Part shown: piece by piece, positions 9,925 to 42,389 of the stretch | Layout: each line of letters starts with the position of its first letter | Position numbering within the stretch: the first letter of the stretch is position 1 | DNA from: Saccoglossus kowalevskii | Taxonomy: Eukaryota > Hemichordata > Enteropneusta > Harrimaniidae | NCBI RefSeq assembly: GCF_000003605.2 | Contig: NW_003116451.1 | Location: 64,650-107,038, forward strand | Direction of reading: 5' to 3' | Length of the DNA stretch: 42,389 bases | Position numbers and translations under genes: made by a program | Notes under the pieces: model-generated | The model's database searches: none | What the model saw: only the letters and a program-made list of their open reading frames with translations | What the model was told of the DNA's origin: nothing

Positions 9925-10553
9925 AGCTCCGCTGTCGACTTTGTCGAGCGGAGCTTATCATATGAGTGATTGTTCGTGGTCGCCTGTCGTCCGTCGTCGT
10001 CCGTGTCAATGTTTTACTTTTTCGACTTCTTCTTGAAAACTACAAGCCTGAACCCTTTGATACTTGGTGTATACGTACCTTGGGTAGACCTCTCTCAGAT
10101 TTGTTCATTTCATGATGATATCTTCAATTCTCTAATTTTGGTGAATATTTTTGTCATTTTTGGTAAAAAGTGATATTTTCAACTTCTTGTTAAAAACCGC
10201 AAGTCCAATTGCGTTGATATTACATATATAGGTACTACATGTGGATCTCTCTCAGATTTGTTCATTTTGTAATGAAATCTTTAATTCTCTAATTTTGGTG
10301 AATATTTTTGTCATTTTTGGTNNNNNNNNNNNNNNNNNNNNNNNNNNNNNNNNNNNNNNNNNNNNNNNNNNGGTAAAAAGTGATATTTTCGACTTCTTGT
10401 GAAACCGCAAGTCCAATTGCTTTGATATTACATATATAGGTACTACATGTGAACCTCTCTCAGATTGTTCATTTTCTAATGATATCTTCTGTTCTTTAAT
10501 TGCCATGTGCATTGCTAACAGCGGAGCTATCTCAGCCGACAGGCTGCTTGTTA
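9925..10553 (+). repeat. Hairpin-headed tandem-repeat element 1 (pearl/Helentron-like)
   Basis: It opens with a strong hairpin: AGCTCCGCT (9925-9933) pairs with AGCGGAGCT (9947-9955). A 2-nt bulge (GT) and an inner CGAC/GTCG stem with a TTT loop lie between. Next comes a GTCGTCCGTCGTCGTCCGTG stretch, then at least three monomers of about 155-160 bp, sharing TTCTCTAATTTTGGTGAATA and GGTAAAAAGTGATATTTTC. Near the end, AGCGGAGCT recurs at 10520-10528, an inverted copy of the head. The assembly gap lies between monomers. The layout resembles pearl-type elements, which are tentatively linked to Helentrons. No ORF is present. The exact 3' end is uncertain. Confidence 0.75.
10322..10371. other. Assembly gap of 50 N
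   Basis: A run of exactly 50 N inside the tandem monomers of the surrounding repeat element. The sequence resumes with ggtaaaaagtgatattttc, the same phrase that starts the preceding monomer at 10161, so the gap probably marks collapsed or unresolved monomers. Confidence 0.99.
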
Positions 10554-10770
10554 GTCAATTTTAGTCCTAATTGATATAACTTTCTCCACAGGTTATTGAT
10601 CAATAATGATTTCTGAAAGAAATTATTTTGTGGAAGGTGACAAAAGATGACTTTGCCGGTCAAAGGGTTAGTCATGTTCCAATGATACCACGGTATAGTG
10701 TATGGTAATTTAGCTATTCAGGGAAAATTGGCAGTGAAGTTATCACGAGAAAGACACAGTCAGGGGTACT
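10554..10770. other. Non-coding spacer
   Basis: Nothing recognised between the tandem-repeat element and the G-tract minisatellite. Confidence 0.6.
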
Positions 10771-10900
10771 AGGGAGTCGCAGTGATTTTCACAGGTATCC
10801 TTAGGGAGCGGGGGGGGGGGGGGGGTCACAGTGACTTTCACTGGGATCCTAGGGAGTCAAGTGAGTTTCATAGGGCTCTTAGGGAGTCGCAGCGACTTTA
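10771..10900. repeat. Degenerate ~30-bp minisatellite with a 16-G tract
   Basis: Four units begin AGGGAGTCGC or similar and continue CAGTGATTTTCAC, then a GGGATCCT-like end. They start at about 10771, 10803, 10851 and 10881. The second unit is longer because it contains 16 consecutive G (10810-10825). The array creates a short open frame that I regard as non-coding. The G tract could form a G-quadruplex and is a likely site of length error or polymorphism. Confidence 0.8.
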
Positions 10901-11157
10901 TGAAATTTTGTGCTATCATGAAATAGCAAACATTTTTAATGGCAACAATTTATGTTTTACACTAAGTTGAACATTTATGATCATCGATATGAATACATGA
11001 AAGAAAAGACATTTTTTATACTCCATTATTTTTACAACTTTAATCTTTTGTGAGTAGTTGGTATGTCACTGACTGAACTTTTTCAGCACCATAATTTGTC
11101 CTGCAAAATTTTGTGTAAATTTGTTTGTATTTTTATATAATTTGCTGTATTTGTCAA

Positions 11158-11322
11158 TTAAAACGGAGGAGTTGTCACCTGTGCATGCGTCAGATGGCCA
11201 TAGCGTGTCATTGTTTACAAACAAGCGTCTACCCATGAGCCTTTGCGCTTTTAGCGTGTGTTGTTATTGTCGCTTGGGACTCAATTCCTGCATGTGCGCA
11301 GGTGACGACCCCTTCAATTTAA
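11158..11322 (+). repeat. MITE family A, copy 4 (TTAA-flanked)
   Basis: A 165-bp element in the same orientation as copy 2. It begins TTAAAACGGAGGAGTTGTCA and ends, on the other strand, TTAAATTGAAGGGGTCGTCA. The interior matches copy 2 closely (AGATGGCCATAGCGTGTCAT, ACAAACAAGCGTCTACCCAT). The TTAA flanks are intact. Confidence 0.88.
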
Positions 11323-13468
11323 CATTTTGAGCACCAAGATCAACTTTTTTTACCATTCACAAAATTAAAACCCACTTAATTTTGTTTTGCAAAATTTGAT
11401 CAAGATCTATAGTCCTTTTATTCAACAATTATCCAAAAATATATAAAAATAGGCAAAAAGCTGTACTACTACTGCTGTTCATGAATTTAGCAAGTCGGCG
11501 AAAATAAAAAAAAAAAATTGTAGCAGTTAAAATTTCACAAAACGACGTGTCAATGACTTTCACCAAATTTTGTCTTTACAAATCCCATAAAATCCTGAAA
11601 TCACGCAAATTTCTAGTATCAGTAGTGAAAATTACACAATTTACAGTTGAATGTGGTTTGGTAGAACAAGCCATAATTATTCTATCCGTGACCTACATAT
11701 ATATAAGTGAGCAGGTTGTAAGAATGAGAGAAACATCATGTCATGAATGTTGACTGTTTTAATAGCTGCGACAGAGCAATGAACAAAGGAGGAACACACA
11801 AGATTAGTACAGGCACTGTCAGTTGTTACCTGAATGATAAAGTACATTTAGAGTGGTAACTAGGCACACTGCATGTCATTTTGTTAACTTGAATTATATT
11901 TGCCAGGAGTTGATAAAGTTATGTTACAAGCAAGCTGATTGAGTTAGGTATTTAAATTTATAACACCCATTCTGATTGGTAAAGATTGATTGTATAAAAC
12001 TAGCTATGATTGGTCTGTGGTGTTATGTTAAGAAAATATTTTAATTAAATCTGTAAAGTGATCTTTCAAGAGATTTATGATAATTATGATCTTTTTTTTA
12101 GTGGTTAGTTTAAACTGCAAATGTAGTTGTAAATTTACACTGTCAGGATGTGTATGTGCAGACATAGTTGATATGTAGAGTGATCACTGTTGCCTAGCAG
12201 GCATAAAGCACGACACTAGCATACTTCATGGGTTTACTCATCCACGATCTCTCATACAATTTGTCCATTCATAATGAGCACTGCACATGTATTTAATGTC
12301 TTCATCTGCCACCTGGACTTGTGTATTGTAATTTCACTGCTGGGCATCACGTGTGTTCACTCGTTTCACATTTCACCTCTTGGATATTAACGTGCACAGT
12401 GACTCTGAACTGAAACTGATAATGAATGTGTAAGTACATATTTTTATCCTCACCACAAATAATATGTCTCTTGAAAAAGGTCAGGATTTTTTTGTATAGA
12501 ATTTTTTCCTGCTATTGTGTGTTTGTCAAAGAGTTTTGAACTGGCTGTATGGAATTAATAATTCTCTGAGACCCACAGTTAATTAACACATCTGTCATAG
12601 TGTATGCCTGTATCCCAAACTACAAAATGCTAATCCAGTAGTTAGGATTAAATTACGCAGGAATTTAATATGGAAGCAAATATTTATTTTTTATTTCTTC
12701 AATTTGCTTGTCATTATGAATCGATTCATTTCACAGAAAAAAAATCTCTCTCTACCTTTTCAGATTTTTTAATCTGTACTTTTCAAATAGTTTCAAATTA
12801 AAGACAGTTTTACTATTGACGACATTTGAGAATTCTACATATGTTGCATGTATTCAATGTATTTGGTGTGCCAACTATATAATTGATAACTAATTAAAAA
12901 GCGCATATTATTTGGAGAGATGAAAAGAACATTTTATTTTCTATACTCATGTGAAACACAATTCCTCATGGATCTAATTTAAAATGACTCCCAGTCATCA
13001 CATAGTTAGCATTTTATTTCCGTAAAGGTGAGCTCCCCTGCTGGAATTTTAAGTTCTCAAAATAACTGAACCTGAATTAAATTAGTCCCACATACCAATT
13101 GCATGGAGCCTTGTTTAGGATGAACCATTATACAAGTAGGGGGACAAGTACTGGTTAAGATGGGTGGTTCACTGCAGTGTATATGATTTTGGAAAAGCCA
13201 GGCAGTACAGTTGTTGCTGTGTGGTTTATTAATCAGATAGATAGCTTTGACTTTAATGCTTGTTTGCTGATTGTTAACAGTTTTGATTGTTATCTGATTG
13301 GATCTGGTTGTTTTTTGAGTGACAATTTGTTTATGTTGATGACTTGTGCCAGTGCTAGCATAAAGCACTATGCAAACAGTGTTTAAATGCTAAGTCAACT
13401 TACTGCTTTACTGTGGAGTAAGTGGAAGGAGTATACTGCCTGTATGCCTTGTGTTTTGGATTCTCTAG
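11323..13468. other. Non-coding stretch, nothing firmly recognised
   Basis: AT-rich sequence without a recognised exon. A GTAAGT-type donor occurs at 12431, but no open upstream segment with a credible acceptor goes with it. Confidence 0.5.
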
Positions 13469-13539
13469 GATCTACTGTCTGATAGATCATCTAGTAATTT
13501 GGATATCATACGTCTGCACCTCTCAATTGAAATGATGAG
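13469..13539 (+). CDS. Candidate 71-nt internal exon, product unknown
   Basis: I do not recognise the product. The segment is preceded by a pyrimidine-leaning tract ending ttctctag and followed by a near-perfect donor, atgatgag|gtaagtct. It is open from its first base, encoding 23 codons starting DLLSDRSSSNLDIIRLHL, and ends in phase 2. It cannot splice directly to the RAPGEF exon at 29781, which begins in phase 0, so it would belong to another transcript or to an unseen exon chain. An open 71-nt frame arises easily by chance. The splice sites are the main support. Confidence 0.28.
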
Positions 13540-16410
13540 GTAAGTCTTGTCAATGTGATTAATTTCCATTTCTGGTCTGGTGCTGAAAGACGGGCACCTT
13601 GAAATGTTTTGTATTTCTGCACAGTAGCTACCAATACCATGTGCATGCTGCGTTTCGTTTTTTCGTAAGTCCTTGGAGTCTGCAGCTGTGCTTCTCCCTT
13701 AATTACTACCTTGTCAAGTGTTGCCAATTGCTGGTATGATGATTGATGTTGATTTATCTGGCTACCTCCCTTAAGTACATCTTCACTAAAACATTTCCAG
13801 TCTTTAGACTCTTGGGATGTGAAGAACCTTGTTAGATTGTTAATTTCAGATGCCTTGTACTTTTTTCATGAGTACATGTTTTACAATGAAAAACTGTAGT
13901 CAAGTAAGTAGCTATTGTATGCTGTAATGTTTCTGGATTCATGTCTGAATGTTTATAATACAATCCATCATGTTGTGTGACTGAAGAGAGACTTGTGTAT
14001 TCCTGTTGTGTCTTTTTCAATCTTGCATTGCTGCTCTTCTCAGCACAGACATAGCTTACCCCATACTAAGTAACGGCATGGGATCTTTTATAAAAATAAA
14101 TTTGACTACTCTTTTTCTGCATATATAATTATGTTTTTTCTGATTGTGAAGTGGATTAGATATAAGCTTGGTTACCCAAAGATGATGCTTTTATTCTGTG
14201 AAAATATTGATAGGTCTTGCCTGATTAGTTGAGATTTGGGAAAATACAATGGTTTAATAGCATGGATTTCTCCAATGAGTTAGTGGTAATTATGTGGTAC
14301 TAGGAGTAAGAATTTTTATGTAGCGAGTCTGGATAGTGCAGATGAGTCAACCTTCTGTATGTTTATTTCAAATGGATTTCCTTAATGTTGTGATAAGGGT
14401 TTCTCTCAAATTTGAAGGGTTCTAGAATGCTGAATTTAGAGTTAACACAAATTCTTCTCAAACAGAATTAATTGAGGATGTTGGTAATTGCTTGTGAGTG
14501 ACATCAATTTTGTTCTTTTAATTTATGATTGTATTAAAAAAAACACGATACAATGACATGTCAATTTAATAATGTAATAAATCAGTCAGCAATTAATTAT
14601 TATTAAAAATAAAGCAAAAATGCGATTTCATTTTAGATTTGTTTATGTAGTTGGGTATTAATATTCCTTCAGTATAGATGTTATATTATAATTATATATA
14701 TCTTACAATGATTTAATATCACTTAAATGGAATACATTTCATCAGTGAAATTAATATAATGCGTTTGCACTCCTTGAATTCTGCCATATTGCATACATTT
14801 TTGCATGGAGGAGAAATTTTGCAATTTTTTTATTTTTAATATTATGTATGATTCTATGCAGCAATGTATAATAATTATGTTGATATTACTGAGCAGAATA
14901 CTGTTACCATAGTACCGGGTAACAAAATATAAGATAAAATGTCAATTGACCATTTCCAAGAAATTTTATTCTCTGGTTTCTGGAAAAATCATCTGATGAT
15001 GCCACAATTTGGTATTCAGTTTTGTATTGTAATGGTTGATTTGTGCAACTATTTTAAGTATTATGTAAATAGATTACAAATGGGTCTCATTCTCGTTCAG
15101 GTAGAAGCCTAATTATGAATGGAAAACACACTATAATATTGTACCGTATATTGTGATTGGTAGGGTACTTTTTGTTATTCAAAATTTTTTAAAAAATTTG
15201 TGTTTTAAAAAAATAGGCCATTTAACTTTATCATTGTGTTGCATGTAATTATTTGGCCCATTTGCTCAAAATATGATACTGTCATATCTATAGTCAGCTT
15301 TCTCAAAAATTACAAATAGATTTCTACATTGGAGTGAAACTTGATTTCTTAATCAAACCTAAAACTTGACAGAGAACATTTTTAGCATAACAATTTAAAG
15401 TTTATGGTATTATGAAAATTTTGGTTGTTTTGAAAAACCACTGACAGTAAATAAATTCTCATGATTCAGTTGAAGTTTTTTTTACTCTTTAGTGGCACCA
15501 GCATTTGTACATATTACGTAATGCAAATTTAGTAGCCAAGCTGTCTCCGTGGTTTACCCTCTGCCCTGACTAGTGTGACTTGTACAACGTTTTTAATTAT
15601 TGTCCACATGTCTCATGAAATGGATTAGGGCTTGTAGTAGCAATTTCCGGCCGGGAATGAATACAAATGCCCTGCAGCATGTTGGTGTGGAACGCAATAA
15701 TCTCAAGACCTATGACAACGTACACTGACAACGAAACGGGACAGATAAAGCAGCTAGAATCTTCTACTATTCACCTAATAATGTCGCAAACATTATTGAA
15801 GGTTTCTTTATTTCATCTTGTTGACAGTACTTCAATAATAACTTTATTACACTACCAAACCATCAGCGGGTTCAGTATGGTAAATAAAAAGTATTACAAG
15901 ACTAGGACAATTCTAAATACACTACAATACAATAAGAACAAATACGAATAAAAAAAACAAAAACATTTAAGTTGCAATATTAAGGCTAAGTGATGTATTA
16001 GATGATTTGATTTTACATGAATTCTAAGAAGTATTAATTAATTGTTCCAATTTCAATGACTTACAGCTCATTCGGATGTTTTTTGATTATTTTGTTTTAT
16101 TTGCTTAATGTGTTGAATAGTTTTTTCTAGTGCAAGTTTACAAATGTTTGCCTCTTTTCCGAGTTACTCCTACTTGAAGTAGTTTGGAAAAACAAATCCT
16201 GAAATATCCTACCTTGGGGGTGCTTTGTTGATTGATAGCAAGATTGTTTGGCAATCTGAACTATGATTGATGTTTTCATTTAAAAACAATTCATAGTGCC
16301 ACTTTAAAAAAAAATAATGATAATTTATTTGTATTAAATTCTATCAATGAAAAGTTTCTAAAATTATGTTAACCGAATGTGTGTACATTTCGAGTGAAAT
16401 TTTCAATACG
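13540..16410. other. Non-coding stretch, one region of atypical composition
   Basis: No gene is recognised. At about 15540-15960 the GC content rises, and the minus strand carries AATAAAG motifs (reverse of ctttatta near 15840). This could be the decayed 3' end or LTR of a retroelement on the minus strand, but no reverse transcriptase or terminal repeats are visible. The rest is plain AT-rich DNA. Confidence 0.4.
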
Positions 16411-16520
16411 TTGATTCAATTCAGTAATATTAAATATAGGTCTGAAAAGTTGATTCAATTCAGGAATATTAAATATAGGTCTAAAAAATTGATTCAATTC
16501 AGTAATATTAAATATAGGTC
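16411..16520. repeat. 39-bp tandem repeat, 2.8 units
   Basis: Three head-to-tail units start at 16411, 16450 and 16489 with ttgattcaattcagtaatat, followed by taaatataggtct. They differ by only a few substitutions, so the expansion is recent. Because 39 is divisible by 3, a + frame stays open and translates as repeats of LIQFSNIKYRS. I treat that as a by-product, not a protein. Confidence 0.9.
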
Positions 16521-16729
16521 GAATCCTAATTGCTTTAGGGAACAGGAAATGTTGTACTTTCCTGTTAAAGAAAAAATATGTGGCAATATATTTTGTTTGC
16601 CTTCTTGGGAATACTACGGATAGTATAATGCCCCAGCGGGATAATAATGCCCTCTTTAATTATAATGTCACTCTGGATAAGATTGGAAAATAAATTTATG
16701 CAACTTTCTGTTCAGTATGTTGTACATTC

Positions 16730-16845
16730 ACCCAGAGTTGGGAGTCGATCCTTTGTGGTGTTTAATCAAGGTATGGTTTGAACTCAAGTCCAACCGACCA
16801 ATCATAAGTTTGGTGCAAAAACCACACTACTTAGCATACTGTTGT
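16730..16845 (-). mobile_element. tRNA-derived SINE (minus strand)
   Basis: On the minus strand there is a B-box-like GAGTTCAAACC (reverse of 16775-16785), close to the GGTTCRANTCC consensus. About 50 nt before it is an A-box-like TGCTAAGTAGTG (reverse of about 16826-16837). The spacing and order fit an RNA polymerase III promoter inherited from a tRNA. The tail beyond the B box is not clearly delimited and no cloverleaf closes properly, so this is a SINE head rather than a functional tRNA. Confidence 0.5.
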
Positions 16846-18057
16846 AATAGACCAATTTCCGTTCTCTGTGAGATACAGTGTTATGTGTGAAATCAGATGT
16901 AAAAACAGGATTAACAAAGGTCAGAGCGACATCAAAACATTGCATGAGATTTGACAAATGCAAAAGTATTTTGCGATCATTTCCATGCTTATTAATTTGC
17001 TATATACATTTGATGATGGTCAATTTTGATGAAGTATAGGTAATATTTTAAGTCTCTCAAAGATTGGCATTTTGACATTGAGGTTAAAAAAAGGATATTT
17101 AAATTCAAAATTAAATCATTCGGTTCGCGTCTTTAATGCAATACGCAAGACCTTGCAGTAAACGACAATCACTTTAATATTGAGTTCATGTCCCACTGAG
17201 AAGTCAGACCAACACAGCATTGATGTAGTGACTGCACACAAACAATGCAATATTACAAGTAATACTAGTACATGTACAATGTAGGTGATGATAGGAAATA
17301 CCTTGTTTCACTTAGTGGGGTGTCACCTTTCACTTTAGCTGCCTGACCTTGTGTAAAGTCAATCCTGGAAAAGGCAAGAAAGTCTTGGTTTAGTTGATTG
17401 ATATTTTCTCTGAAATTGACATTGTAATCGGACATAACCTCGTTTCGAGTATTGAAGGGGGGGGGGGGTTCACAAGTTGCTATTAGCTGTATTGTGGTGA
17501 TAAATCCTACCCACCCCCATAAAATTGAATTGACCTCCCATTTTATTATGTTTAAATTCTATGAATACATCACTATTCTACTCATGTCTATGTTCTGGGG
17601 CTAGTAATTTGTCTGTACATGTTTGCCCTGAATGTTACCATGCTATTAAACTTCTTTAAGATGCATTGATATACTGTACTGGTACAATCTGTTTTCTTTG
17701 TAATGCAATCTACATTGAACACAAACTTATTTCTAATTTAAAGTGTTCAAACTTTTTAATGCCAATCCTTCTGTCACTTTTCACAAAAATTAACCTAATT
17801 TTTTGTTGAAAACTTTGATCAAGACTTGTAACTGATAGGAAATTATGTCCATTTGATCCGAAGTTGACATGGAAATTTTACGAAAATACAAAGAATGTGC
17901 AAAATGTTGCATTCAAATTTTGGCGTGAAACCTTACGGCACTCGAAAGGAATTATATCGCCATCATTCTTAGTGTATTCTTCGCAAAAAAGCAGGATGTT
18001 ATTGTCTACACCATGTACTACTATAGAATCCATGCCTACATGTTGTTCTATCGCTGT
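16846..18057. other. Non-coding stretch with a 12-G tract
   Basis: No gene is recognised. A run of 12 G is at 17457-17468. A 90-codon open frame starting at 17864 has no recognisable domain. Confidence 0.55.
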
Positions 18058-18221
18058 TACTATTGTATTTACTCTCTTAGAAGCACATACTCTTATGTAC
18101 GGTAAATATCATGTTAAATACGCCTGCATTTCTTGAGTTTTGTCTTCAAAATATAAAAAAACAAAAAAACAAAAAAACTTATTTTGGCCTTGCATGCACT
18201 TCCGATAGAGTAAATTCGGTA
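18058..18221. repeat. MITE family D, diverged copy
   Basis: The left end, TATTGTATTTACTCTCTTAG plus AAGCACAT, is mirrored by the inverted right end, TACCGAATTTACTCTATCGG plus AAGTGCAT. Both match the family motif GTATTTGCTCTATTAGAAG. It is flanked by TA. The interior has an A-rich tract of repeated caaaaaaa. Confidence 0.6.
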
Positions 18222-18695
18222 TCTTTTGGAGGATTGGAGGACATCAAGAACTCATCTCAGTATGTAAGTTTTCAGTACCTCCTGTGACGGTTAATAATTA
18301 CCGATTCTCACTTTTTTGGGATTTCTCGAAGACGTAATAAATCTAAACTCATCTCACATTCAAAAAAAGCATTCTGTGGTTATCGCAATTCAATACGTCC
18401 ATTACAGAATCAATCAGGATATACAGCTTAGTCATAAACACTTTGTAACTGGAACAGTAATTGTCCATTAGTCTGTATATTTGATTATCCTGGACTGGGC
18501 CGAAGCTTAAATGTAAATGAATTGGGATCCATTGTAGGCTTTACTCGAAATCAATCACTATCGTTGTTCAAAGGTCGTTAGAGGTTATCGCTGAAGAAAC
18601 TAAAAGTGGATTTATATGTACCTATATACATGTACATAATAATAATCAGCATGACATCAGTTTATACTGATTTGTTGTCAGCGTAATTTACAATT

Positions 18696-19445
18696 AGTTG
18701 TGTTCACGTTACACGAAGTACGGGCTAAGATTTAACCTGATTTAGGCTTATCTAGCATATTTGCATTTCAGCTAAATCCAATTGCGTCCACGCACAGGGA
18801 GGGCCATTCGTTAGCACGGGCTAAGGGGCCCCATCAGTTGGTGACCTTTGGCAAGCCGCTATTTACGAACGAAAAATGGATGACACGCGCGAATTTCTAT
18901 TTCTGTTGCTGACATGTTTCGTTCTAATTTTGAAGCGGCATGCACTGGAACGCGAGAGAAAACGGACCCATCTTATTTGGGTGCACAGAAACAGTATACA
19001 ACGGCGTAACAGATTACAGAGTTTTATTAATGCATGTCGTAGACAGCGAACCAAATTTATTTTGTCTACGATTGAAGCTACTGTACGCTCTACTACAGCA
19101 TGGATGTACTAGTACATCCATGACTACAGCGACCCGATCAGTGTGGAAGCGTGTACACTGAGCTCGATTGCCATTTTGGGAATGAGAAACTTGGATATAT
19201 TTGATCACGTGCATATTGTTCACACCCAAAGGTTGATGCAGAGGGCGCTTAGCCCTGGGCTAAGCGTTCGCGCATACTTCGTTAGCCCGTGCTAAGGGTC
19301 TAGACCGCGTCTTAAATTCGGATCAGATTTAACCCGTACTTAGCATTCCTTAGCCCGTGCTTAAGCGTTCACGCACGTTTGCTTAGCACAGGCTAAGGAA
19401 TTTGACCTCATAGCCCGTGCTAAGGAGCTGTGCGTGAACGCAACT
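18696..19445. mobile_element. Harbinger-like non-autonomous DNA transposon, 750 bp
   Basis: The left end AGTTGTGTTCACGTTACAC and the inverted right end AGTTGCGTTCACGCACAG form terminal repeats. They are flanked by a 3-bp direct repeat ATT (18693-18695 and 19446-19448), which suggests a target-site duplication. Near-palindromes of the form TTAGCACGGGCTAAG or its variants occur about seven times, clustered in both subterminal zones (around 18714, 18812, 19248, 19284, 19350, 19382 and 19410). A second GCGTCCACGCACAG motif lies inside the left arm. A short ORF remnant sits in the middle. A 3-bp duplication and subterminal repeats suit the PIF/Harbinger superfamily. That assignment is inference. 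Confidence 0.72.
18876..19112 (+). pseudogene. Possible Harbinger transposase N-terminal remnant, 78 codons
   Basis: This frame lies inside the 750-bp element, between its two repeat-rich arms. It begins MDD, has a leucine-rich stretch (residues 7-20), then a basic stretch with RERKRTHLIWVHRN (about residues 26-39) and another basic patch near residues 42-61. Many animal Harbinger nucleases start with an acidic-hydrophobic segment, then arginine-rich sequence and a W-V-H/R-P-like motif, and this is weakly similar. The DDE catalytic region is absent, so it could not encode a working transposase. The resemblance was judged by eye and may be coincidental. Confidence 0.35.
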
Positions 19446-19578
19446 ATTGTAAAAATGCTTATCATTTTGATTTATACTCATACTCTATATATTATTCAAT
19501 GGGTGTCAAGTTAATTTCGTGATATCAAATTGTTTTGTCAGTTTCAACCAAGATTTACCATCTATTTGAATCAATATA

Positions 19579-19762
19579 TACTGTAAAATCTGTATTAGAA
19601 GATGCAGCTTCTATTAAAATGATACACTGCAACAGAAGGGATGTGGCTTCTATTCGAGCATGTACACATATGAGAAATGGTGAATGTTTGCTTAACATTT
19701 GTTCAAAAAAAATGGGTGCGACTTCTATTAGAGATGCGGCTTCTAATACAGATTTTACGGTA
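19579..19762 (+). repeat. MITE family C, copy 1 (TA-flanked)
   Basis: A 184-bp element. Its left end TACTGTAAAATCTGTATTAG (plus AAG) is repeated inverted at the right end as TACCGTAAAATCTGTATTAG (plus AAG). Inner inverted pairs involving GCTTCTATTA and TAATAGAAG extend the symmetry. A TA target and long inverted ends suggest a Tc1/mariner-type MITE. A second copy lies inverted at 40606-40786. Confidence 0.85.
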
Positions 19763-20094
19763 CGTGTCTTGTATGTTTTATTCAGTTTACATAATGTAAA
19801 TCTATTTAATTTCACTGTTTTGATATTTATTTCATTTTGTGTATGTTAAATTAACTACTATTTTATGATTTAAAGTGCCACAGCACATTTTTTCTTTGTG
19901 CTTTTAAATCTTCGTTATGTATACTACATGTAATATATATGTGCCGGGGTAAGTTATAAACCATCATCCGCCCAATAAAGATGTTGTGCAGAAACATGAT
20001 ATAGTGTATATACAATACATGTGTCAGCAGATTTGAGTTTTCGAGTTACGTGCTACTTTCTTTACTCGTATAATGTGTACAACATGTTTTTCAT

Positions 20095-22065: not shown

Positions 22066-22384
22066 TGTCGTGATGAGTAGTCAATTCTTGTAGATATCTG
22101 AAACTGTTTCTCACCTCAGGGCCCTCTTGAGTATAAATAACATAAATAATTCATAATGCGTTTCACAGTATGTTGTGCCAATTTCCCTCAAAAGGAAAAT
22201 TTCATCGTTAGAGTTTTTTTTTATTTGGATGTTAAGTGCAAGCATTGAGGCCATTGTTCAGACACCTGTTAATGAAGTACAGTTGTTATGATCTACCAAT
22301 AACATTGATATGTAAGTTTTTCATCCCAACTAATTTATGCTAAATATACATTGTAGATTAAGCCACCAAATCATATTTACAAGA

Positions 22385-26614: not shown

Positions 26615-27934
26615 GTATAATTAAAGCATTATTTCATTTTAACCTGTTTTTGATTCTGAGAAAAGTTTGAGACAATAAAACTAATTTTAGGAAATGTATG
26701 TAATTAATCACCCTCTTTTCACATGTAAAACTTTTAGATATGAAGTACTCATGTTTAGAAGGTTCACTGACAAAACTGGTACATGTGTGTACCTTATAAA
26801 CAGAAATATCCTTGTATTCTGGGGCAGAGTACTGTCAATTTTTTTATTTTCATTTCGAATTTATTTTTGCTAAAGGTGTGAATAAATAAAAATGAAATCC
26901 AATAAAAATAATCTTTTTTTTTTATATTTTACATTTTACCAATCAGCCAAAATGTCTTTTCAGCAAAAAAATTAATTACAGAAAAAAAAATATTTTACAT
27001 TAAATCCTAATGAACTTTTTACTGAGTTTTGTATTTTTATTTTTTAGTTGGCTTCTACGTTAATGACTTCTGAGCTGATAATGCCGTGTGTATAGTCTAC
27101 ATTTATCTTGGCTTGAAAACTGATCAATAAATGATCTCCAACATTTAAAAAAAAATTATTAATATCGACACTTCTATTCATAATACGTCCCAACATTGAG
27201 ACAATTTAACAATTCTAAACTACTTGTGTCGTATGACCTCATTTTATGTGTGTGGTTTTATTTGTCGCAATTCGTTACCTTCCAGCGTATTTGGACATTG
27301 TAATTTTGATTTTGAAATGCATACTGTGATGCACTGAGCTTGTAATATGCCGCAAGCTACAATGTATATTTGTTTAAGTAGACTGCTTCATTTACAGTCC
27401 TTCCACAGTTCACATCTGCGTAAATATATATCGACTAACTTTCAGTGTTAAATCTAGGTCATACATCTGTGGACAAATTTGATGAAATATTATAGAATTG
27501 TTTATGTTCATAAGAAACTGTCAATCATGGCTCTGATATCTGTCTGTGTTATCATGTCTCAGTATTGGCACCAGAGGGCGCAATTGTATTAGATTTCAAT
27601 TTTGTACATGGTTTATTTGGTGATTGATAATTCTGGTTAAAGGGAATATAAACGAAATGTAGATTTTGTTATTTTAATTATTATAATATATGATCTTGTT
27701 TTTTTGCGATGGTTTTCTGTTAAAATTATTTGAACAACAATGCAAAATGTATCACTGCCACACATTTTCGTGATTTGACACTGTGTATAGGATCTCAGAG
27801 AAATTTTCGCTGCTACAAAATTTTGCGAGTCATTGAAAATTTGTCTCTTTCAAAATTAAAGCAATTTATAATATGCTTTTTTTTGTGGAAATTCAGATTC
27901 AATCAAAGCCTCCCAATGTAGAACTTTTTATTAA
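26615..27934. other. Non-coding AT-rich stretch
   Basis: No gene is recognised. It holds a CTCF-like motif at 27568-27581 and several A- or T-rich low-complexity tracts. Confidence 0.55.
27568..27581 (+). promoter_or_regulatory. CTCF-like motif 2
   Basis: GCACCAGAGGGCGC matches 13 of 14 positions of the CTCF core, in the same orientation as the sites at 25000 and 30170. Confidence 0.4.
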
Positions 27935-28380
27935 TCCCCATTCAAACGAAGTAATTTGATTGTTCGTATGACAGTCCGTCCATCCAGAGTCGTATTTCAG
28001 AACCCTCTGGACCAATTCCATTGATTCATTGCATGTACCTCGCACTTTATGTAGGACATATGCAAATGCAGTGGTTCAGTAAAGGCCGACTGGCAACCAT
28101 TTTGTTTTTTCAAAATGTGGTATTGTGGACATGCTTTGTCAGTTTTTGTTCAAATTCAGTACATACGATATACATAGTTAGGATACAAGTCTATGGCGAT
28201 TTGTGTTTGTGATCAGATCAAAGATGGTTGACTGGCAACATCTTGTTTTTTCAAAATGTGGTATCGTGGACATGCTTTGTCAGTTTTCATTCAAATTTGG
28301 TATAGTTTGTACATCATACTCAGATACATATGTAGAATACATGTTTATGACAATTTGTAGAACTTTTTATTTTACCCTGA
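27935..28380 (+). repeat. Hairpin-headed tandem-repeat element 2 (decayed)
   Basis: It begins aatccccattcaaacgaagt, a degenerate form of the head of the element at 40797 (agtccccgttcggacgcagt). A remnant of the GTCC-rich stretch follows (agtccgtccatcc). Next are two monomers about 142 bp apart sharing GACTGGCAAC, TTGTTTTTTCAAAATGTGGT and GGACATGCTTTGTCAGTTTT. The phrase gccgactggcaaccattttg also occurs, little changed, in the 41-kb array (gccgactggcggccattttg), so the two are related. The hairpin no longer pairs well. Two overlapping short frames across it are incidental. Confidence 0.65.
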
Positions 28381-32983: not shown

Positions 32984-35900
32984 GTAAATCTGTAGTTATC
33001 TAGTTTTATTGTCACATTGTTGTTCAGGGATCTCTTGGATTACCTTTCTTGCCTATTAAAACATCCAGGATGTCAGATCACACGTCTTCCCCCGCAACCG
33101 AGCATACACTCCCAGAAAATATTACTGCTAAATCTCAACTAATGGTGTCCAAGTCAAAGTAAATGCCAGTTTTAGAAAATTAATATTTTGTGAAAATTCA
33201 TAGGAGTAAAATTAAAATATTAAGACCAGGTCATAGGTCATAATTTTTCCTGCCAACACTTTCTAAAATTTTCTGTATTTTTCTTTAATTTCTTTGTTAA
33301 TTTTAGATCAGATCAGATGGACATAATATCTCATAAAAAAAATTAAAAAAAAAGAGAGCTCAAAGAGTTAAATGTGTGCACTAGGTTTCGTGATGGTTAC
33401 AAGAACTTGTTTTGTGACTTAATTAATAGTTGGTCATATGAGGCAAACCTGAATTCATTGACTGACCCCCCTACCCCCTGTATCACTTTAAATATGTGAT
33501 GATGTCCTAAGTAACAAAGTTGATGATCCTTAGCTTGAAGATAATAAAATTCAAAATTAACTGTCCGTGAATTCCTGAAATAGACTTATATGCAAATTAG
33601 CTATGTTCTGAATGAATATACCTCACTTGTGAACAAAAGCATGCCATAAACAACAATAGTTGTGTTCAATTAGAGAGCACAATTGAACTTAGTAATGGCA
33701 TTTTGCATACATTGTTCAGTCACTACATTTTAATTTAGAATAGACTTGTATTCCTATTGCTTTTTGATGGAGCGAACCATTTGCAAGTTTAGGGGATACG
33801 GCTTTGTCAAAACAGGGATCACAGCGTGCGTATGTTTATGTGGCCTGGAACACCACAGGCATTAAGTCGGTGACAGTCACTGGTCATTGGAATGTGATTG
33901 GAATTTCCATGACAATACTCGTGAAATCTGCATAATAATAGCAAGGATTCCTCACATGGGTAATTCTGACAGGTGTTGTGGTCGCGAATGGAAGTTATTT
34001 ATTCTCGGTGCTTTAGTGTTTTTACGTCTGACGTTATTCTCTATCGGGAAAAGTGTCACATCAGTGATTGTATTTCAGTTCAGCTGCCTGAGCTGCTCTT
34101 GAAAGCATTATTAGACGCTGACTTCACTATATCAGTTGTAAGATATACTCCGAATCTGAGATATTCTTTCTCATTGGTGGGTTTCAAAGCAGTTGACTTC
34201 CCTGCTTTAAGACATTTGTGTGTCCCCAGCAAACCTACCATACAATGGCGTTATGTACTGATGTGATCGTGATGCTCCGTCCATGCCTGCTAAGACATTA
34301 GTTGAACACTGACAATAGAAGTACTCTACTCTTAGTAGAAATGACAGGAGGTATGTTTTTCAAATATTCACAGTTTCACTATCAAGCAGGTGTGACCCGC
34401 CATGTCAGACATTATACTGGTCTTAACACCCTGGGGTGAGAGTCCAAAGACATTAATGGCCTATTGTACTAATTGATTGTTGACCCCCTTTATAAGTACG
34501 CGTGAAAATGCAAATTAGACAGTTATGGTTTGTGTTTTACAACAAGTTTGACTTTTAAAATTAACTAATAAACACTAGAAGTATGTGAATTGTTCTATGC
34601 CAACATTTGACAACACATTTGTTAGGTGATCACAAGTTGTTAATGTCTAATCTCTTGACTGTTTGTTACTGCTTTCACGCTGAGAATTGAGACCTGTATG
34701 TGAAATGTCTTATTTTTAGTTGCATATAAATGTGTTTAGATAAACTTAAATAAATAATTTTTTGTTACACAAAGCCAAATTATTATTAATACAGCTTGAC
34801 TGATTTTTTGAAATTGCTTGAAAATATGACAAGTACAATTTAAAAAAAACAAAATCTATAGCAGTGTAAAATGCAATATAGAAAACCTTTTTTTCAATTA
34901 TTTCAAATTATTAATCCAGCAAACACCACGTATGGAAGAATACATCACAAACAGGCAAAATGAACTTGACAAACATAATGATAAATGGTTAAATTTAATA
35001 TAAATACCAGTAATATATATTTATTATCGAATGTATTTTCATTCTGTTACATCCGTTTTTTGTATTTATCTTTTCAGTCTTTTTCTTTCAGTGTACCTTG
35101 TTTTGTAAACCCTCCACATTATATTAAGAAAATAAAATATTTCTCAATATAAAAAAACATGAACAAAACAGAAATGGTGGAAAACTTGTCAAATTATTTT
35201 TTTCATCACTTATAGTGCTTCTCCTCCACAGGATTATGTTGTTGTCATTTTTTGCTTTCCCCATCATTTTTTTTGTTTAGGATATTTTTTTATAACATAT
35301 CATAGGAATATAAGAATTATAATTACAAAATACAAGAAAGTAAGGAAATCAACAAAAATATACTCAGATTATTTAGGCTACAAACCTTGAATTATTGTAT
35401 TTTAAAATCAAAGAAATGCATATTGATTCATGTCACATGTGTTGAATGGAGAACTAAGTACATCTATAGATTTTGGCATTCAAAAGTGAATTTAAAAATA
35501 GACTAACCTTTTTCAAATGTCTGTTATAGAGAAACTATTTTTAAATTTTTCTTTGAAGGGTGTCACTTTTCTTCCAATATTCAGTGCGGCTTCTTTATGT
35601 ATTTTTCTGTAATCTCCTTCTTAATTTTTGACAAGATTTTTCGTCAGCCCTTGATCTGTTTTTTTGACAAAATACAGAAAAAATTAAATAGATTTCATAG
35701 TAACATTATTCGGCATTTCAAGGTTTTTTAACTTCTTCTAGATTGGAAGGATTTACATTTCAGCATTTCTCATTTTTGAGAATTCAATTATTATCTTACA
35801 GTACTGTATCCTCTGGCGATTACAGTTACGTACCAAAGTAATTATATACTGAGAAAGACTTCATTAATCGCTAGATTTTATTTTCGCTGATAGAAAAATA

Positions 35901-36489
35901 ACCTGAATTTCAAACATGGTGACAGTTATTTATGTATTGTTCACAAAACCATGACTTGCTGAATATCTGTTAAATTTTCTAAAATTTATCACAAAATATT
36001 TTGACTTACATAAATGAACTAATTATATTGTATATTTCTCATATTAATTGTTGTAGTCCTTGTAAAAGACATGACAATAATTCCATAATTCCCTGCCCAG
36101 ATTATCGCTCAATATACAATAATCAACTGCAGTGCCTGACAGGAGCTGTCTGAGATTTTGTTTAGCATGTCTATTCAAAACACCACAATCCGAAGATTTT
36201 CGAAAAGACTCCTTGCATTTATTTAATTAATTTGATCTATCACAATATTACTCGAAACACGGCAAGGACATGTCATTGCCCTTTCTACAATGCAAGGTGT
36301 TCTTGTATACAAACAGTCATGACAGGAGGGAGTGGCCGTGGAGGAAGTGAACGTGCATAAAAGTCTCTGATGTCAGGAAATGCACACATGTGTAGCGTAC
36401 AATAGAAAGCCAGTCGTAGCCAAAACACTTGTCATTTCACAAAGCGTAATGACCTAATAGTGATTTCACAATTGCTAATGGGTCAGTAA
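32984..36489. other. Probable RAPGEF intron, no exon recognised
   Basis: About 3.5 kb of AT-rich sequence. Two marginal exon-like segments (about 33072-33161 and 34081-34139) were considered and rejected. No repeat family member is clear. Confidence 0.5.
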
Positions 36490-36538
36490 TAACGTTATTA
36501 TGAAGTACACCGTGTAACGTTATTATGAAGTACGCTGT
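36490..36538. repeat. 25-bp tandem duplication
   Basis: taacgttattatgaagtaca occurs at 36490 and again, as taacgttattatgaagtacg, at 36515. The period is 25 bp with two nearly identical units. Confidence 0.9.
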
Positions 36539-36594
36539 ATTGATGTTTAACAAACTAATTTACGTTGAGATGTAGACCGAAATAAAAAAGAGTC

Positions 36595-36724
36595 TAAACT
36601 AAATTTGTTCTTTTAGAAGTGCATGTTCAATTGAAGTGCACATAAACCAAGAGTTACATATAATGAACAGGATTATTAAAATATGACTTCTGCAATTTTC
36701 TACTTATAGAACAAATACACTGTA
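36595..36724. repeat. MITE family D, diverged copy (130 bp)
   Basis: The left end TAAACTAAATTTGTTCTTTT plus AGAAGTGC pairs imperfectly with the inverted right end TACAGTGTATTTGTTCTATA plus AGTAG. The T-TTTGTTCTNTNAG core matches the family. It lies directly upstream of a family A MITE. Confidence 0.5.
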
Positions 36725-36734
36725 CATACATATC

Positions 36735-36858
36735 TTAAAGGGGGGGGGAGTCGTCACCTGTACATGCATCAGATGGCCATAGCGTGTCATTGTTTACAAA
36801 CAAGCAAGATTGGGACTTAATTCCCCCGCGTGCGCAGGTGACGACCCTCTCGCTTTAA
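36735..36858 (+). repeat. MITE family A, copy 5 (internally deleted)
   Basis: A 124-bp element with intact TTAA flanks. It begins TTAAAGGGGGGGGGAGTCGT and ends, on the other strand, TTAAAGCGAGAGGGTCGTCA. It matches copy 4 up to ACAAACAAGC, then skips about 40 bp and resumes at TGGGACTTAATTCC. The deletion removes the CCCATGAGCC block. Confidence 0.87.
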
Positions 36859-37002
36859 AAGTAATCACTAAAACATTTTGATGTTGAGACCTTCGTTCAT
36901 GAAGTCTACATTATGACACGAGACATTCTGTGTTTAGCATATCACCTGCTTATGTGGGTTTTTCTTGTTCATTTCGGCTATACACGAAGGCTTACAGCAG
37001 GT
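36859..37002. other. Non-coding spacer
   Basis: Nothing recognised between two MITEs. Confidence 0.6.
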
Positions 37003-37219
37003 TACTGTAAAATGACTAATTTTCACTGGGTTTAAATTTCGCTGATTTACCATTTCAGACATATTCATTGGGTTTTAAATTCACGGTTTTATCATTTAGA
37101 TAATGTGTTATATGATCAATTTTACATATTCCCTTGGGGTTAATTTAGTGCATTTTCTAGCCAGCGAATTACCGGTAAGCTAAATTAAAACCCAGTGAAT
37201 AATTAATCCTTTTACAGTA
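37003..37219. repeat. MITE family E (217 bp, TA-flanked)
   Basis: The left end TACTGTAAAATGACTAATTT plus TCACTGGGTTT is mirrored by the inverted right end TACTGTAAAAGGATTAATTA plus TTCACTGGGTTTT, an imperfect terminal repeat of about 35-45 bp. The interior contains further CACTGGGTTT/ATTGGGTTTT motifs. The TACTGTAAAA tip is shared with family C, suggesting transposase cross-recognition or common origin. Confidence 0.8.
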
Positions 37220-37904
37220 TGTGTTTTAAAGACCCTGTGAAATATACAATGCTACAAAATGTTTCAATTTTCTTTGCTTGAAGGCATTTACATACAATGT
37301 CAAAAACTGACCAAAAAAATATAACACAAAATTCACAACTACAGTGTACATTTCAATCCAATACAGTCACAGTGGGTGGTTCAAGTTAATAAGGTCTTAA
37401 TCAGGGAATTGCTGGGAAAACTATGATGGCGCAATGTCCGCATGAGGGAAATCTTCCATTGTACGCATGTATTATTCAATTGTGTTGCGATATATATTTA
37501 GAAAACTGAATATTGTGTTTCTATATGTTTTACTAAGATACTGTGGCAGGTACTAGTTACAGCAATGCTGTTATGTTTCACACTGATGTTGCCATTGAGG
37601 CCTGGCTGATTGCTGCTCCAGTTGATGACTATTGGAGATAACTGCTCCCTCTTGTTTCAATTAAGTTAATAAATACCCTGTTTTTAGTTATTATGTTGAT
37701 GATCTATCATTTGCAAATGATTGACAAGGTTTTGAATATTCAAGTTTTATGTTGTTGTATTGGACACATTTTCAGGTTGGCTAATTTCCAGTGCAGGTGA
37801 AGACATACTATTTTCTTTGCTTTGATTTTTCTTTTCTTTGATGTAACATTTTTTTCTGTGTGAAATTTTCCACATTATGCTGGTGGCCTTTGACATTATT
37901 TTTT
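37220..37904. other. Non-coding stretch, nothing recognised
   Basis: No exon, repeat or RNA structure that I can support. Confidence 0.6.
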
Positions 37905-38280
37905 GAAATGTATACTGTTTTAATTTCATGAGGAACACATTTTCAAAGTCATTGGAAATCGTGAAATTTGTTGGCAGTAAAAATTTAATAGGGGTAATAC
38001 AATTTTGTGAAGATACAGAGTGAAGACGATTTTTGCAGACTTTTGTATACCACTTCAATTTTGCGAACGAAAAATTTTTGAAGTCATTTAAAATCACAAA
38101 ATTTTGTGGCAGTGAAAACTTCACTGGGGTAATACATTTTTGTAAAGATACAGAGTGAAGATGATTTTCGCAGAATTTTGTATACCACTTTAATTTTGCG
38201 AGCGAACAATTTTTGGAGTTATTGGAAATCGCAAAATTTCGTAGCAGTGAAAATTTCACTGAGGTACTAAAGATGCAGAG
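37905..38280 (-). repeat. 135-bp tandem repeat, about 2.7 units, open on the minus strand
   Basis: Units are spaced by exactly 135 bp: the phrase ggcagtgaaaacttcactgg and variants recur at about 37973, 38108 and 38243. So do GATACAGAGTGAAGA and TATACCACTTNAATTTTGCGA. Because 135 is a multiple of 3, one minus frame stays open for 170 codons (37747-38259) and repeats a 45-residue block with LAKLKWYTK and LHSVS. The units have diverged with substitutions while the frame stayed open. I favour a satellite-like repeat, since there is no signal peptide, known domain or splice context. Confidence 0.8.
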
Positions 38281-40170
38281 TAAAGCGACTTTTGACCTCA
38301 GAAATAAATTGTTAAATCATCAGAAAAGTGAAAATTCCTAGAAGTGACAATTAGGAATAGTTATTATTTTAATGTCTAACATGCATGGAATTGTCTGTTA
38401 CTACAACTGAGAAACATAAAAATAAACACTGTCAGGCATTTCACAATCTGAGTGCATTAGTGAACACTTAAATTTCATGTAAATCTGATTCCTGGCTAAT
38501 GGACCATAGTCAAATTTTTACTGATACAAAATCTTTGCTCCACCAGCGAAAATTTTTATTGTGAAAGTGTTTTCTCAATACATTACAAGTCAACAAACAG
38601 GTGCACCTAACTAATATAATGATACTTTAGTATAATTTATTGATTTCTGCACAGAAATACTGAATTGTCGCACCATTGCTATTGATTTTTTTTTTTTTGC
38701 ATAAAGTCTTTTTGAGGTTGATAAAAGCAATTATCTTCCCAAAATGCTTTCAATTCTCAGGAGAGACTTGAAAATTCACCCCTACTAGTTGCGTATTCTA
38801 GTGCTTCCACTATGCATATGAAAATGTAAACTTATTATTGCATAATAATATCACAGAATTTGATAATAAAAACATATTATTGATAATAAAAATATAAGAG
38901 ATAGTAAAAACATACTTTTAATAATGAAAATACATTTTGATAATAAAAAGAATATTTTGTGCTGCCCCTTGTAAAGCATCACTTTCCCCACCCTCTTTAT
39001 AAATAGAATATTCCTATACCTAGTACTCTTTTTATATTTAAAATATCGAAAGGTTTCCTGTTCGTCAGTCATTATTGTATTATATTAGTCGTGAATAGCT
39101 ATATCACGATGTAATTTCTCATCTTTGCTGGTAATGTTAGAACTATTCTGCGAGTAACTTTGATGCTGAATAAATGTATCTATTACATCATCAGTGAATT
39201 CATCACGATGTAATTTTTCTGGATTTTGAAAAAAACACAGGAAAGGTTTATCAGTACCATTGTATTACTGCTTTCAAAGAGTTGTGTTTCTCTGTCATCT
39301 AATGTTCTTAAGAATGTAGTATGGATAATTTTGAATAGTTAACAAGTATTAACTGCGCCTCCGCGAATAATTAAAACACCTGGGAGACAAATTTTCATAT
39401 ACCCAAGAGTTTTAATATTTGTTTTGTCATTACGTATTTGGGATTTGACTAATCATGTGTTGATTTGAATGTCCATGGTCTCTGCGGCGAACACTGCAGT
39501 GTAACGTCCAACATCCTCACACTGGCAGTCTCTGGACAACAAGGAGATATTTATCATATTTTCAATATGTTTATTTACACGAATATTTTGATGTCATATA
39601 GTCATCTGGCAACCCTGTCGACGGCCTGGTTACATTTGTTTACATATTCAAATTGTGCACTTCATTTGTGTTGTGCTACCAGCGATTTGAGTGGATACAG
39701 TCTTGTAAGCTGCTCACTGCACAGGTGAAATATTGTTGTGATTTTCAGCAATATGATAATATTGTTGCGATTGTCGAAGTTTTCAAGTTTGCCAAACTTG
39801 GACTTTAAACTTTTTGCATTTCAATATCCAAATTATGCAACTCACACCCTAAGATGCTGAAAACTTGATCACAACTGAATCTACACACAGCTCGATGATG
39901 TTCAAGTCAGAGCTGACAATCATTGATCTTAATACACTCTGCTACATGTACATGTTAAATTCTGTAAACTAGCATGTTTAAGTTGCTTTTAAAATTGTGC
40001 CACATCCCCTAGTTCAAATGGGAAAACTTTTTGACTAAACGTCAAGTTCAATATCTCAGTTTATAAAAAGAAAACCCTTGCTCCAGTATGTAAATTGGCA
40101 AGACAAGTTCGCTCCAACTGCTTGTAAAAAGAAAACACACACAAAAAACAACACTTTCTTTACCAGCTGA
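38281..40170. other. Non-coding stretch with a TGATAATAAAAA-type low-complexity tract
   Basis: At 38865-38955, TGATAATAAAAA-like words recur five or more times. Elsewhere nothing is recognised. An 87-codon + frame at 39465 is unassigned. Confidence 0.55.
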
Positions 40171-40400
40171 CACTTGTAATCCTGTTATGGGTAATGATCA
40201 AGTTTTTTACAGTGACTTTGATTTTGTCATTCGTGTGACCTTGAAAACACACACACACAAAAAAACACTTGCTTTGTCAGCTTATACTCAATTTCCCTAC
40301 TCCTGACTGAAAATAAAGCACTTGTAATCCTGTTAGCGGTAGTGATCAAGTTTTTTTACAGTGACTTTGATTTTGTCATTCGTGTGACCTTGAGCTTGCT
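40171..40400. repeat. Direct duplication, 148-bp period
   Basis: cacttgtaatcctgttatgg at 40171 recurs at 40319 as cacttgtaatcctgttagcg. Both continue with TGATCAAG, TTTTTTACAGTGACTTTGAT and TTTGTCATTCGTGTGACCTT. Each copy is about 80 bp. The spacer contains an ACACACAC tract (40246 onward). The near-identity points to a recent duplication. Confidence 0.88.
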
Positions 40401-40605
40401 GCCAGTAGCAGGTGAGGACAAAGACTTCAGTTATTTATAGCTTGTTCCAAGACAGTTATTTTTATTATGTTAATCCCCGACTTGTATGTGGGCCAAGTGA
40501 TTTTTTCACATAGTAGTACGGTATCATTATTTTTTTTTAGTACAAATTTTTTTTTAACATGCATGCATTTTATGTGCAAAAAAAGTTCCTCAACTTGTTC
40601 CTGTG

Positions 40606-40786
40606 TACCGCAAAATCTGTATTAAAATTCACATTTCTAGAAGTTGCACCCCTTCTTTTTGAACAACTGAGAACCAAAAATTCACCATCTCTCATATGTG
40701 TAGGTGCTCTAATAGAAGCCACATCCCTTCCATTTCATTGTATCATTTTAATAGAAGCTACGACTTCTAATACAGATTTTACAGTA
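40606..40786 (-). repeat. MITE family C, copy 2 (TA-flanked, inverted)
   Basis: A 181-bp element that is the reverse complement of the copy at 19579-19762 along its length. Read on the minus strand it starts TACTGTAAAATCTGTATTAG, shares AGGGATGTGGCTTCTATT and ACACATATGAGAGATGGTGA, and ends with inverted GTACCGCAAAATCTGTATTA. It ends 10 bp before the hairpin of the next element. Confidence 0.88.
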
Positions 40787-40796
40787 TATGTTTGTT

Positions 40797-42389
40797 AGTC
40801 CCCGTTCGGACGCAGTCCGAAAACGGGGACTTATGTTTTGCCCTGTGTGCGTCCGTCCGTGCGTCCGTGCGTCCGTGATCACCTGTATCTCGAACATGCA
40901 TGAACCGATTAAGTTCAAACTTCACTCATACATCACACATGTATGGGACATATGCACATGCATTTTTTTCATGATCCAATTAACGATAGCCGAATAGCGG
41001 CCATTTTAAGTCCGAAAATGCATCAAAATCACACATTTTCACCATTCCGGACCCGGATCTCAGTTATGCATGGACGGATTTCGTTCAAATTTGGTACATA
41101 CATTAAACATAATAGGACCTTGATGCACGTCATTTTTTTTTTTTGATCGGGTTTGAAATGGCCGACTGGCGGCCATTTTGTTTTAAAGAATTCAGTTCTG
41201 GATCCGTATCTGAGACATGCTTGGATTGATCGAGTTCAAACTTCACACACACAAGGTACATCATGTCACAAATATGTATGTGCATTTGTTTCATGATTTC
41301 ATTAACGATAGCCAAATGGCGGCCGCTTTAAGGCCGAAAATGCATTGAAATCGCACATTTTCACCATTGCGGACCCGGATCTCAGTTATGCATGGACCGA
41401 TAAGTTCAAACTTCACTCGTACATCACACATTATATGTGACATATGCACATGCATTTTTTTCATGATCCGATTAACGATAGCCGAATAGCGGCCATTTTA
41501 AGGCTGAAAATGCATCAAAATCACACATTTTCACCATTCCGGACCCGGATCTCAGTTATGCATGGACGGATTTCGTTCAAATTTGGTACATACATTAAAC
41601 ATAATAGGACCTTGATGCACGTCATTTTTTTTTTTTCGGATCAAGTTCGAAATGGCCGACTGGCGGCCATTTTGTTTTGAAGAATTCAGTTCTGGATCAG
41701 TTTCCGAGACATGTCTGGATTGATCAAGTTCAAACTTCACACACACAAGGTACATCATGTCACAAATATGTATGTGCATTTGTTTCATGATCTCATTAAC
41801 GATAGCCAAATGGCGGCCGCTTTAAGGCCGAAAATGCATTGAAATCGCACATTTTCACCATTCCGAACCCGGATCTCAGTTATGCATGGACCGATAAGTT
41901 CAAACTTCACTCGTACATCACACATTATATGTGACATATGCACATGCATTTTTTTCATGATCCGATTAACGATAGCCGAATAGCGGCCATTTTAAGGCCG
42001 AAAATGCATTGAAATCGCACATTTTCACCATTCCGAACCCGGATCTCAGTTATGCATGGACGGATTTCGTTCAAATTTGGTACATACATTAAACATAATA
42101 GGACCTTGATGCACGTCATTTTTTTTTCGGATCAAGTTTGAAATGGCTGACTGGCGGCCATTTTGTTTTAAAGAATTCAGTTCTGGATCCGTATCCAAGA
42201 CATGTCTGGATTGATCAAGTTCAAACTTCACACACACATGGTACATCATGTCACAAATAGATATGTGCATTTGTTTCATGGTCCGCTTAACAATAGCTGA
42301 ATGATGGCCATTTTAAGGCCGAAAATGCATCAAAATCACGTATTTCACAATTCCGGAACCGGATCTCAGTCATGCATGAATGGATTTTG
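40797..42389 (+). repeat. Hairpin-headed tandem-repeat element 3 with higher-order repeat (runs off the window)
   Basis: The head is AGTCCCCGTT (40797-40806) paired with AACGGGGACT, an inner CGGAC/GTCCG stem, a GCA loop and a 2-nt bulge. This is the same plan as element 1. A GTCC-rich stretch follows (gtccgtccgtgcgtccgtgc). From about 40862, monomers of roughly 150-170 bp run to the window end. Each carries a GGATCTCAGTTATGCATGGA-like phrase, then a GTTCAAACTTCAC-like phrase. They come in three types, so the exact repeat is a ~493-bp trimer: TATGCACATGCATTTTTTTC recurs at 40951, 41443 and 41937. The array is CpG-rich with palindromic GGCGGCC. Short frames in it are incidental. The 3' end is not in the window. 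Confidence 0.85.

Follow-up and report, generated by a model that had tools for sequence, protein, structure and literature searches.

The window analyzed here, a 42,389-nucleotide stretch of the Saccoglossus kowalevskii genome (contig NW_003116451.1, positions 64,650 to 107,038), contains three short arrays of tandem repeats, each of them headed by a hairpin or by the remains of one. The locus raises the question of what these structures are and whether they belong together. A reading of the DNA made from its letters (hereafter the sequence-only reading) had described them as three related elements and had tentatively linked them to Helentrons through the pearl-type elements of marine invertebrates. 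Judged by their sequences, they look like non-coding rolling-circle transposons with short satellite arrays, of which one complete copy (element 1) and two partial copies (elements 2 and 3) lie in the window. It is very probable that they are pearl-like HINEs, which are non-autonomous Helentron/Helitron2-type transposons.

The complete element and its classification

Element 1 extends from T-run to T-run at about 9919..10562 (all parts of the three elements are given on the plus strand). Both of its subterminal repeats have been located, and we infer the 3′ limit at 10562. The element starts with the letters TTAG. The 5′ subterminal inverted repeat (subTIR) TAGCTCCGCTGT at 9924..9935 is matched in 12 of 12 positions by the reverse complement at 10518..10529, the 3′ subTIR ACAGCGGAGCTA, which is a perfect inverted copy of the start. 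A pair of 12/12 bp was not obtained in any of 2000 dinucleotide shuffles, and a pair of 11 bp was obtained in two of the 2000; the exact 12-bp repeat has only these two sites in the window. An internal inverted repeat (IR) at 9947..9955 pairs with the 5′ subTIR to give the head hairpin 9925–9955, which consists of a 9-bp outer stem, a 4-bp inner stem and a TTT loop. Folded as DNA, this hairpin reaches −13.1 kcal/mol (z −7.24), and none of 200 shuffles was as strong. The head is followed by a GTCC/GTCG microsatellite-like stretch at 9979..10007, which is the densest in GTC of the whole window (7 GTC in 45 nt), and by an array of about three monomers of ~157 bp at 10019..10501, which includes a 50-N assembly gap (10322..10371). 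The 3′ palindrome CAGCCGACAGGCTG at 10533..10546 (CAGCC-GACA-GGCTG, with a 5-bp stem and a 4-nt loop) starts 3 bp past the 3′ subTIR. Both edges are T-rich: TTTTTT lies ahead of the head, and AATTTT, the candidate 3′ end, would close the element 16 bp beyond the palindrome and 33 bp beyond the 3′ subTIR. The edges share no direct repeat longer than 6 nt. The parts stand in the order 5′ subTIR, inverted partner, GTC-rich stretch, ~157-bp array, 3′ subTIR and palindrome.

Among the features of HINEs, subTIRs of ~11–15 bp at both ends, a 5′ IR, a microsatellite together with tandem repeats and a 3′ palindrome are found in element 1. The Cg_HINE elements of the Pacific oyster are reported to have subTIRs of 11–12 bp, IRs of 7–12 bp and a spacing of 1–12 nt (PMC7492417); the corresponding values in element 1 are 12 bp, 9 bp and 11 nt. 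According to the same study, GTCC/GTCY/GTCK microsatellites are present in 6 of 11 Cg_HINE elements, TT is the preferred target, and target duplications were not found (PMC7492417). TT is located directly 5′ of the head in all three elements of the window, but the surrounding DNA is AT-rich. The likeness to Cg_HINE is one of layout and comprises the 5′ subTIR, the IR, the GTC-type microsatellite, the satellite-like monomers, the 3′ subTIR, the palindrome and, possibly, the TT preference (PMC7492417). According to PMC7492417, the pearl elements of bivalves (CvA, CvE, CvG, MgE and DTC84) contain up to six central repeats of ~160 bp in a short array and have been re-classed as non-autonomous Helentrons (HINEs). 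The short arrays of ~160-bp repeats are common to pearl and the present elements by description, sequences aside. The link to pearl and Helentrons made in the sequence-only reading proved right. It is secure for element 1, where the parts described for HINEs follow one another as published. The right end of element 1 and the direct repeats around element 2 had been overlooked in that reading.

Similar likenesses are seen in other groups. The subTIRs, the 3′ stem-loop, the microsatellite or tandem repeats and the possible TT or T-rich preference recall DINE-1 and the mite HINEs in their described features (PMC4067079). An IR near the 5′ subTIR is present in DINE-1, absent in mite HINEs and present in element 1; in the mite HINEs, the palindrome is described at 8–35 bp from the end (PMC4067079). 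In Helitron2 elements, the terminal inverted repeats are described as asymmetric and each end has a hairpin; the FoHeli elements terminate in ATTTT, and their 3′ repeat is placed 20–40 bp upstream in the legend and 38–51 bp upstream in the text (PMC5148889). FoHeli1 and FoHeli2 of Fusarium, which belong to the Helitron2 group, share with the present elements the start hairpin, a 12-bp inverted repeat situated a few dozen bp from the 3′ end and a terminal ATTTT, which in element 1 is the candidate end (PMC5148889). Two further apparent resemblances to the sequences given there were noticed post hoc: the FoHeli2 start T[c/a]AGTCC..GGACTT resembles TTAGTCC..GGACTT of element 3, and TCAGCCGA..GGCTG of FoHeli1 resembles the palindrome of element 1 (PMC5148889). 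The FoHeli elements differ in that they are 5–6 kb long, contain a transposase gene and, by the same description, insert after TNAT and not TT (PMC5148889). A canonical Helitron (Helitron1), which has 5′ TC, 3′ CTRR ~11 nt past the palindrome and insertion between A and T, was considered and rejected: element 1 starts with TTAG, and the nearest CTRR (CTAA, 10567–10570) lies 20 nt past the palindrome.

The presence of inverted repeats close to either end of element 1 would also suit miniature inverted-repeat transposable elements (MITEs) of the terminal-inverted-repeat type, which are moved by a cut-and-paste transposase and would contain tandem repeats by coincidence; pearl was originally described in this way. 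The start repeat of element 1, however, has a second inverted partner, and a palindrome comes after the 3′ repeat, which, if the 3′ limit is right, lies ~33 bp inside the element. There is also no target duplication at element 1. This explanation is regarded as highly improbable.

For an element of Helentron type, the Rep/helicase would come from an autonomous Helentron at another genomic site. At both ends, it would recognise the sequence of the 12-bp repeat, and it would nick at the T-rich start, after which the strand would be copied in rolling-circle mode through the array. The copying would end at the 3′ subterminal repeat plus palindrome, and the product would join a TT target without duplication. 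The array would be carried as cargo, and its length changes and higher-order repeats may arise through unequal exchange or rolling-circle slippage. No Pfam match was found in the window (six frames, 18 stretches, E up to 0.01), which is expected of non-autonomous elements.

Elements 2 and 3 and the role of the hairpin

Element 3 spans 40795 to the window end at 42389. Its head hairpin is located at 40797..40831 (5′ arm 40797–40806, 3′ arm 40822–40831), with a 10-bp outer stem, a 5-bp inner stem, a GCA loop and an arm spacing of 15 nt. Its folding as DNA gives −15.6 kcal/mol (z −6.92), and 0 of 200 shuffles were as strong. A GTCC microsatellite-like stretch, read from the letters, follows at 40849..40877, with GTCCGTCC at 40851. 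The array (40885..42389) is a trimeric higher-order repeat A170-B151-C171, of which three units are present and which runs past the window end; mean identity is 91.9% between monomers of the same register (9 pairs) and 61.6% between those of other registers (27 pairs). Element 3 fits the HINE anatomy and is cut by the window end. Its right end would be expected past 42389, as an inverted copy of the start (AACGGGGACTAA-like) followed by a palindrome. No further outstanding head of the element 3 type is present in the window, where 14 matches at up to 3 mismatches were found against 18.6 expected. As separate observations, the B monomers contain a perfect hairpin with 9-bp arms in two of the three units, and a ~190-bp element with terminal inverted repeats of ~31 nt is present in two inverted copies (85%), at 19573–19763 and 40605–40792, the head hairpin of element 3 beginning 4 bases past the end of the second.

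Element 2 is located at 27933..28355. It has a decayed head, which extends to about 27952 and folds no better than 27 of 200 shuffles (z −1.17), the word GTCCGTCCATCC at 27974–27985 and about 2.5 monomers of ~141 bp. The element is broken inside the array: the final monomer parallels the preceding one up to the word TTTGT. A right end was not found, there being no reverse-complement match of at least 7 nt to the start within the next 1.6 kb.

Elements 2 and 3 have homologous heads (score 28, null maximum 23, none of 500 shuffles as high) and homologous monomers (score 115, null maximum 56 in 200 shuffles). Element 2 is an old relative of element 3 with a proper start and without a right end. 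Element 1 stands apart. Its head is unrelated by score to that of element 2 (340 of 500 shuffles as high), its monomers score 28 against those of element 3 (null mean 29.8), and the comparison with the monomers of element 2 is borderline (45 vs null maximum 44). The scores of the GTC stretches were reached by 26 of 500 shuffles for elements 1 and 3, by 214 for elements 1 and 2 and by 109 for elements 2 and 3, so that these stretches are alike in composition at most. The window holds three exact copies of the word GTCCGTCC, one in each of the heads of elements 2 and 3 and one at position 6395. The IR next to the 5′ subTIR measures 9 bp in element 1 and 10 bp in element 3 and is decayed in element 2. 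Arrays are present in all three elements, and the GTCC stretches of elements 2 and 3 are short and unremarkable by GTC density. On sequence comparison, there are two families sharing one layout. The three elements had been described as related; this holds for elements 2 and 3, in head and monomers, whereas element 1 has the layout in common with them and no significant sequence. The GTCC-rich stretch reported after each hairpin is distinctive in element 1 and not special by density in element 3, and the monomer size given as 140–165 bp is roughly right (~157 and ~141 bp in elements 1 and 2, respectively, and 170+151+171 bp in the trimer of element 3). With these elements, the Helentrons that carry satellites, and that are believed to disperse satellite DNA within the genomes of invertebrates, would gain two sequence families, of which one has a complete copy.

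The hairpin heads attributed to the elements are intact in elements 1 and 3 and decayed in element 2. Both intact heads have a common plan of outer stem, 2-nt bulge, inner stem and 3-nt loop, and their stem and loop sizes are alike. The two bulges are not on the same strand (5′ GT in element 1, 3′ AA in element 3), so the shapes are similar and not, as had been stated, the same. The view that shape was conserved over sequence, and that the hairpin is hence recognised structurally, finds no support here: it was drawn from two hairpins with chance-level similarity and opposite bulges, and an exact 12-bp repeat is present at the far end of element 1. Paired stem changes prove nothing here, because there are two hairpins only, each picked as palindromic. 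Since the head hairpin of element 1 is formed by the subTIR and the IR, the supposed bulge GT is the part of the subTIR beyond the 9-bp IR, and these letters are repeated exactly at the far end, inside the 12-bp subTIR. The 12-bp repeat, exact at both ends, points to recognition by sequence.

Perfect hairpins with arms of at least 9 bp, at least 5 G/C per arm and loops of 3–16 nt were counted in the window. Five were found, compared with a shuffle mean of 0.16 and a maximum of 2 (100 shuffles): the heads of elements 1 and 3, one at 19246–19266 and two within the array of element 3. The three additional GC-rich hairpins, together with the true higher-order repeat of element 3, which is typical of satellite arrays, would agree with ordinary, immobile satellite arrays preceded by chance or cruciform-forming hairpins. 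Against this explanation, the array of element 1 is bracketed by matched 12-bp ends, one head layout is common to two array families, and GC-rich hairpins are rare in shuffles. It, too, is regarded as highly improbable.

Several observations weigh against the Helentron classification. Only one complete element is present in the window, and the right end of element 3 lies beyond it. The 3′ end of element 1 folds no better than chance (z −1.22; 23 of 200 shuffles), and the classification depends on the matched repeats and on how the parts are ordered. Elements 1 and 3 have heads no more alike than expected by chance (51 of 500 shuffles as high). In element 3, the arm spacing of 15 nt exceeds the range published for Cg_HINE (1–12 nt), and its 4 GTC per 45 nt are equalled at eight other places in the window. 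Finally, element 2 is flanked by exact 16-bp direct repeats, whereas HINEs are reported without target duplications; this sets element 2 apart from Cg_HINE (PMC7492417).

The direct repeats at element 2

The left copy of the 16-bp direct repeat TGTAGAACTTTTTATT (27917..27932) lies directly 5′ of the head of element 2, and the right copy (28356..28371) starts where the monomer breaks. With tandem arrays excluded, it is the sole exact direct repeat of at least 15 nt at a spacing of 200–800 nt in the window; 200 block shuffles gave a mean of 0.16 and a maximum of 4 such 15-mer pairs. No poly-A or other tail was read in the sequence past the repeat. The 16-bp repeats are read as a target duplication, in one old copy. 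A tandem-insertion reading was dropped: by eye, the DNA to the left of 27917 is unlike a monomer end. Since published HINEs have no target duplication, element 2 would have arrived by another route or have been sealed in an unusual way.

Insertions of the long interspersed nuclear element (LINE) type have one exact and one truncated end. Target duplications of LINEs and of short interspersed nuclear elements (SINEs) measure 7–20 bp and are accompanied by a 3′ tail. Element 2, or even the whole group, could accordingly be explained by target-primed reverse transcription, in which an antisense transcript ending at the hairpin is inserted by LINE machinery and the copy is truncated in the array, with a 16-bp target duplication. 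The exact direct repeats indeed border directly on the head and on the broken monomer, respectively, and one end is exact while the other is truncated, as a LINE-type insertion gives. However, element 2 has the 16-bp repeat without a tail, and element 1 has neither, its edges lacking a direct repeat of more than 6 nt and its right end being fully of the Helentron type. Moreover, the pattern is seen in a single copy only. Movement by reverse transcription is considered quite unlikely.

Within the Helentron classification, the target duplication might be accounted for if Helentron-type elements can also integrate one-ended, element 2 being a fossil of such a second route. We consider this unlikely as well. 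By this route, the exact 5′ hairpin end would be joined to the target and copying would halt within the satellite array; the loose end would then be sealed at a staggered cut, which would produce a target duplication of about 16 bp. Helentrons carry a retrotransposon-derived endonuclease domain, and the cut could perhaps be made by this endonuclease or by LINE machinery. If the 16-bp duplication recurs at other truncated copies, it would bear on the integration of endonuclease-carrying Helentrons.

Searches for relatives and neighboring repeats

Relatives of the elements were sought by hairpin patterns in virus and prokaryote collections only. The patterns were found in 10 stretches of viral_contigs and 82 stretches of genome_contigs; the other viral_contigs patterns gave 0 matches. 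Of the 140 pattern matches on both strands of these 92 records, one has a GTC-type stretch within 150 bp; it lies in a contig titled uncultured Ruminiclostridium and was rejected as a relative, its sequence not being that of an element. With blastn, the three elements gave no match to the 92 records at 1e-3; at E up to 10, 16 short matches were obtained (best 0.022), and among the matches listed most were to the hairpin itself. The lack of relatives in virus and prokaryote collections is expected of an animal element. A literature search with the letters of the hairpin arms returned, among the matches listed, other subjects only. Searches of the window against Rfam (gathering threshold) and for tRNAs gave 0 matches each.

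The window has a GC content of 33.5%, and its one 50-N gap is that inside element 1. A second family that resembles MITEs, ~170 bp long and with inverted ends of 28 nt (TTAAAGCGGGAGGGTCGTCACCTGCGCA), is represented by five copies or fragments (459–563, 2738–2902, 4675–4844, 11158–11328 and 36729–36858) and by a 27-nt match at 917–943. A cluster of short palindromic GCTTAGCC/GGCTAAGC motifs is located in GC-rich DNA at 19246–19400. Two more short tandem duplications are found at 37909–38266 (135 bp) and 40171–40393 (~148 bp).

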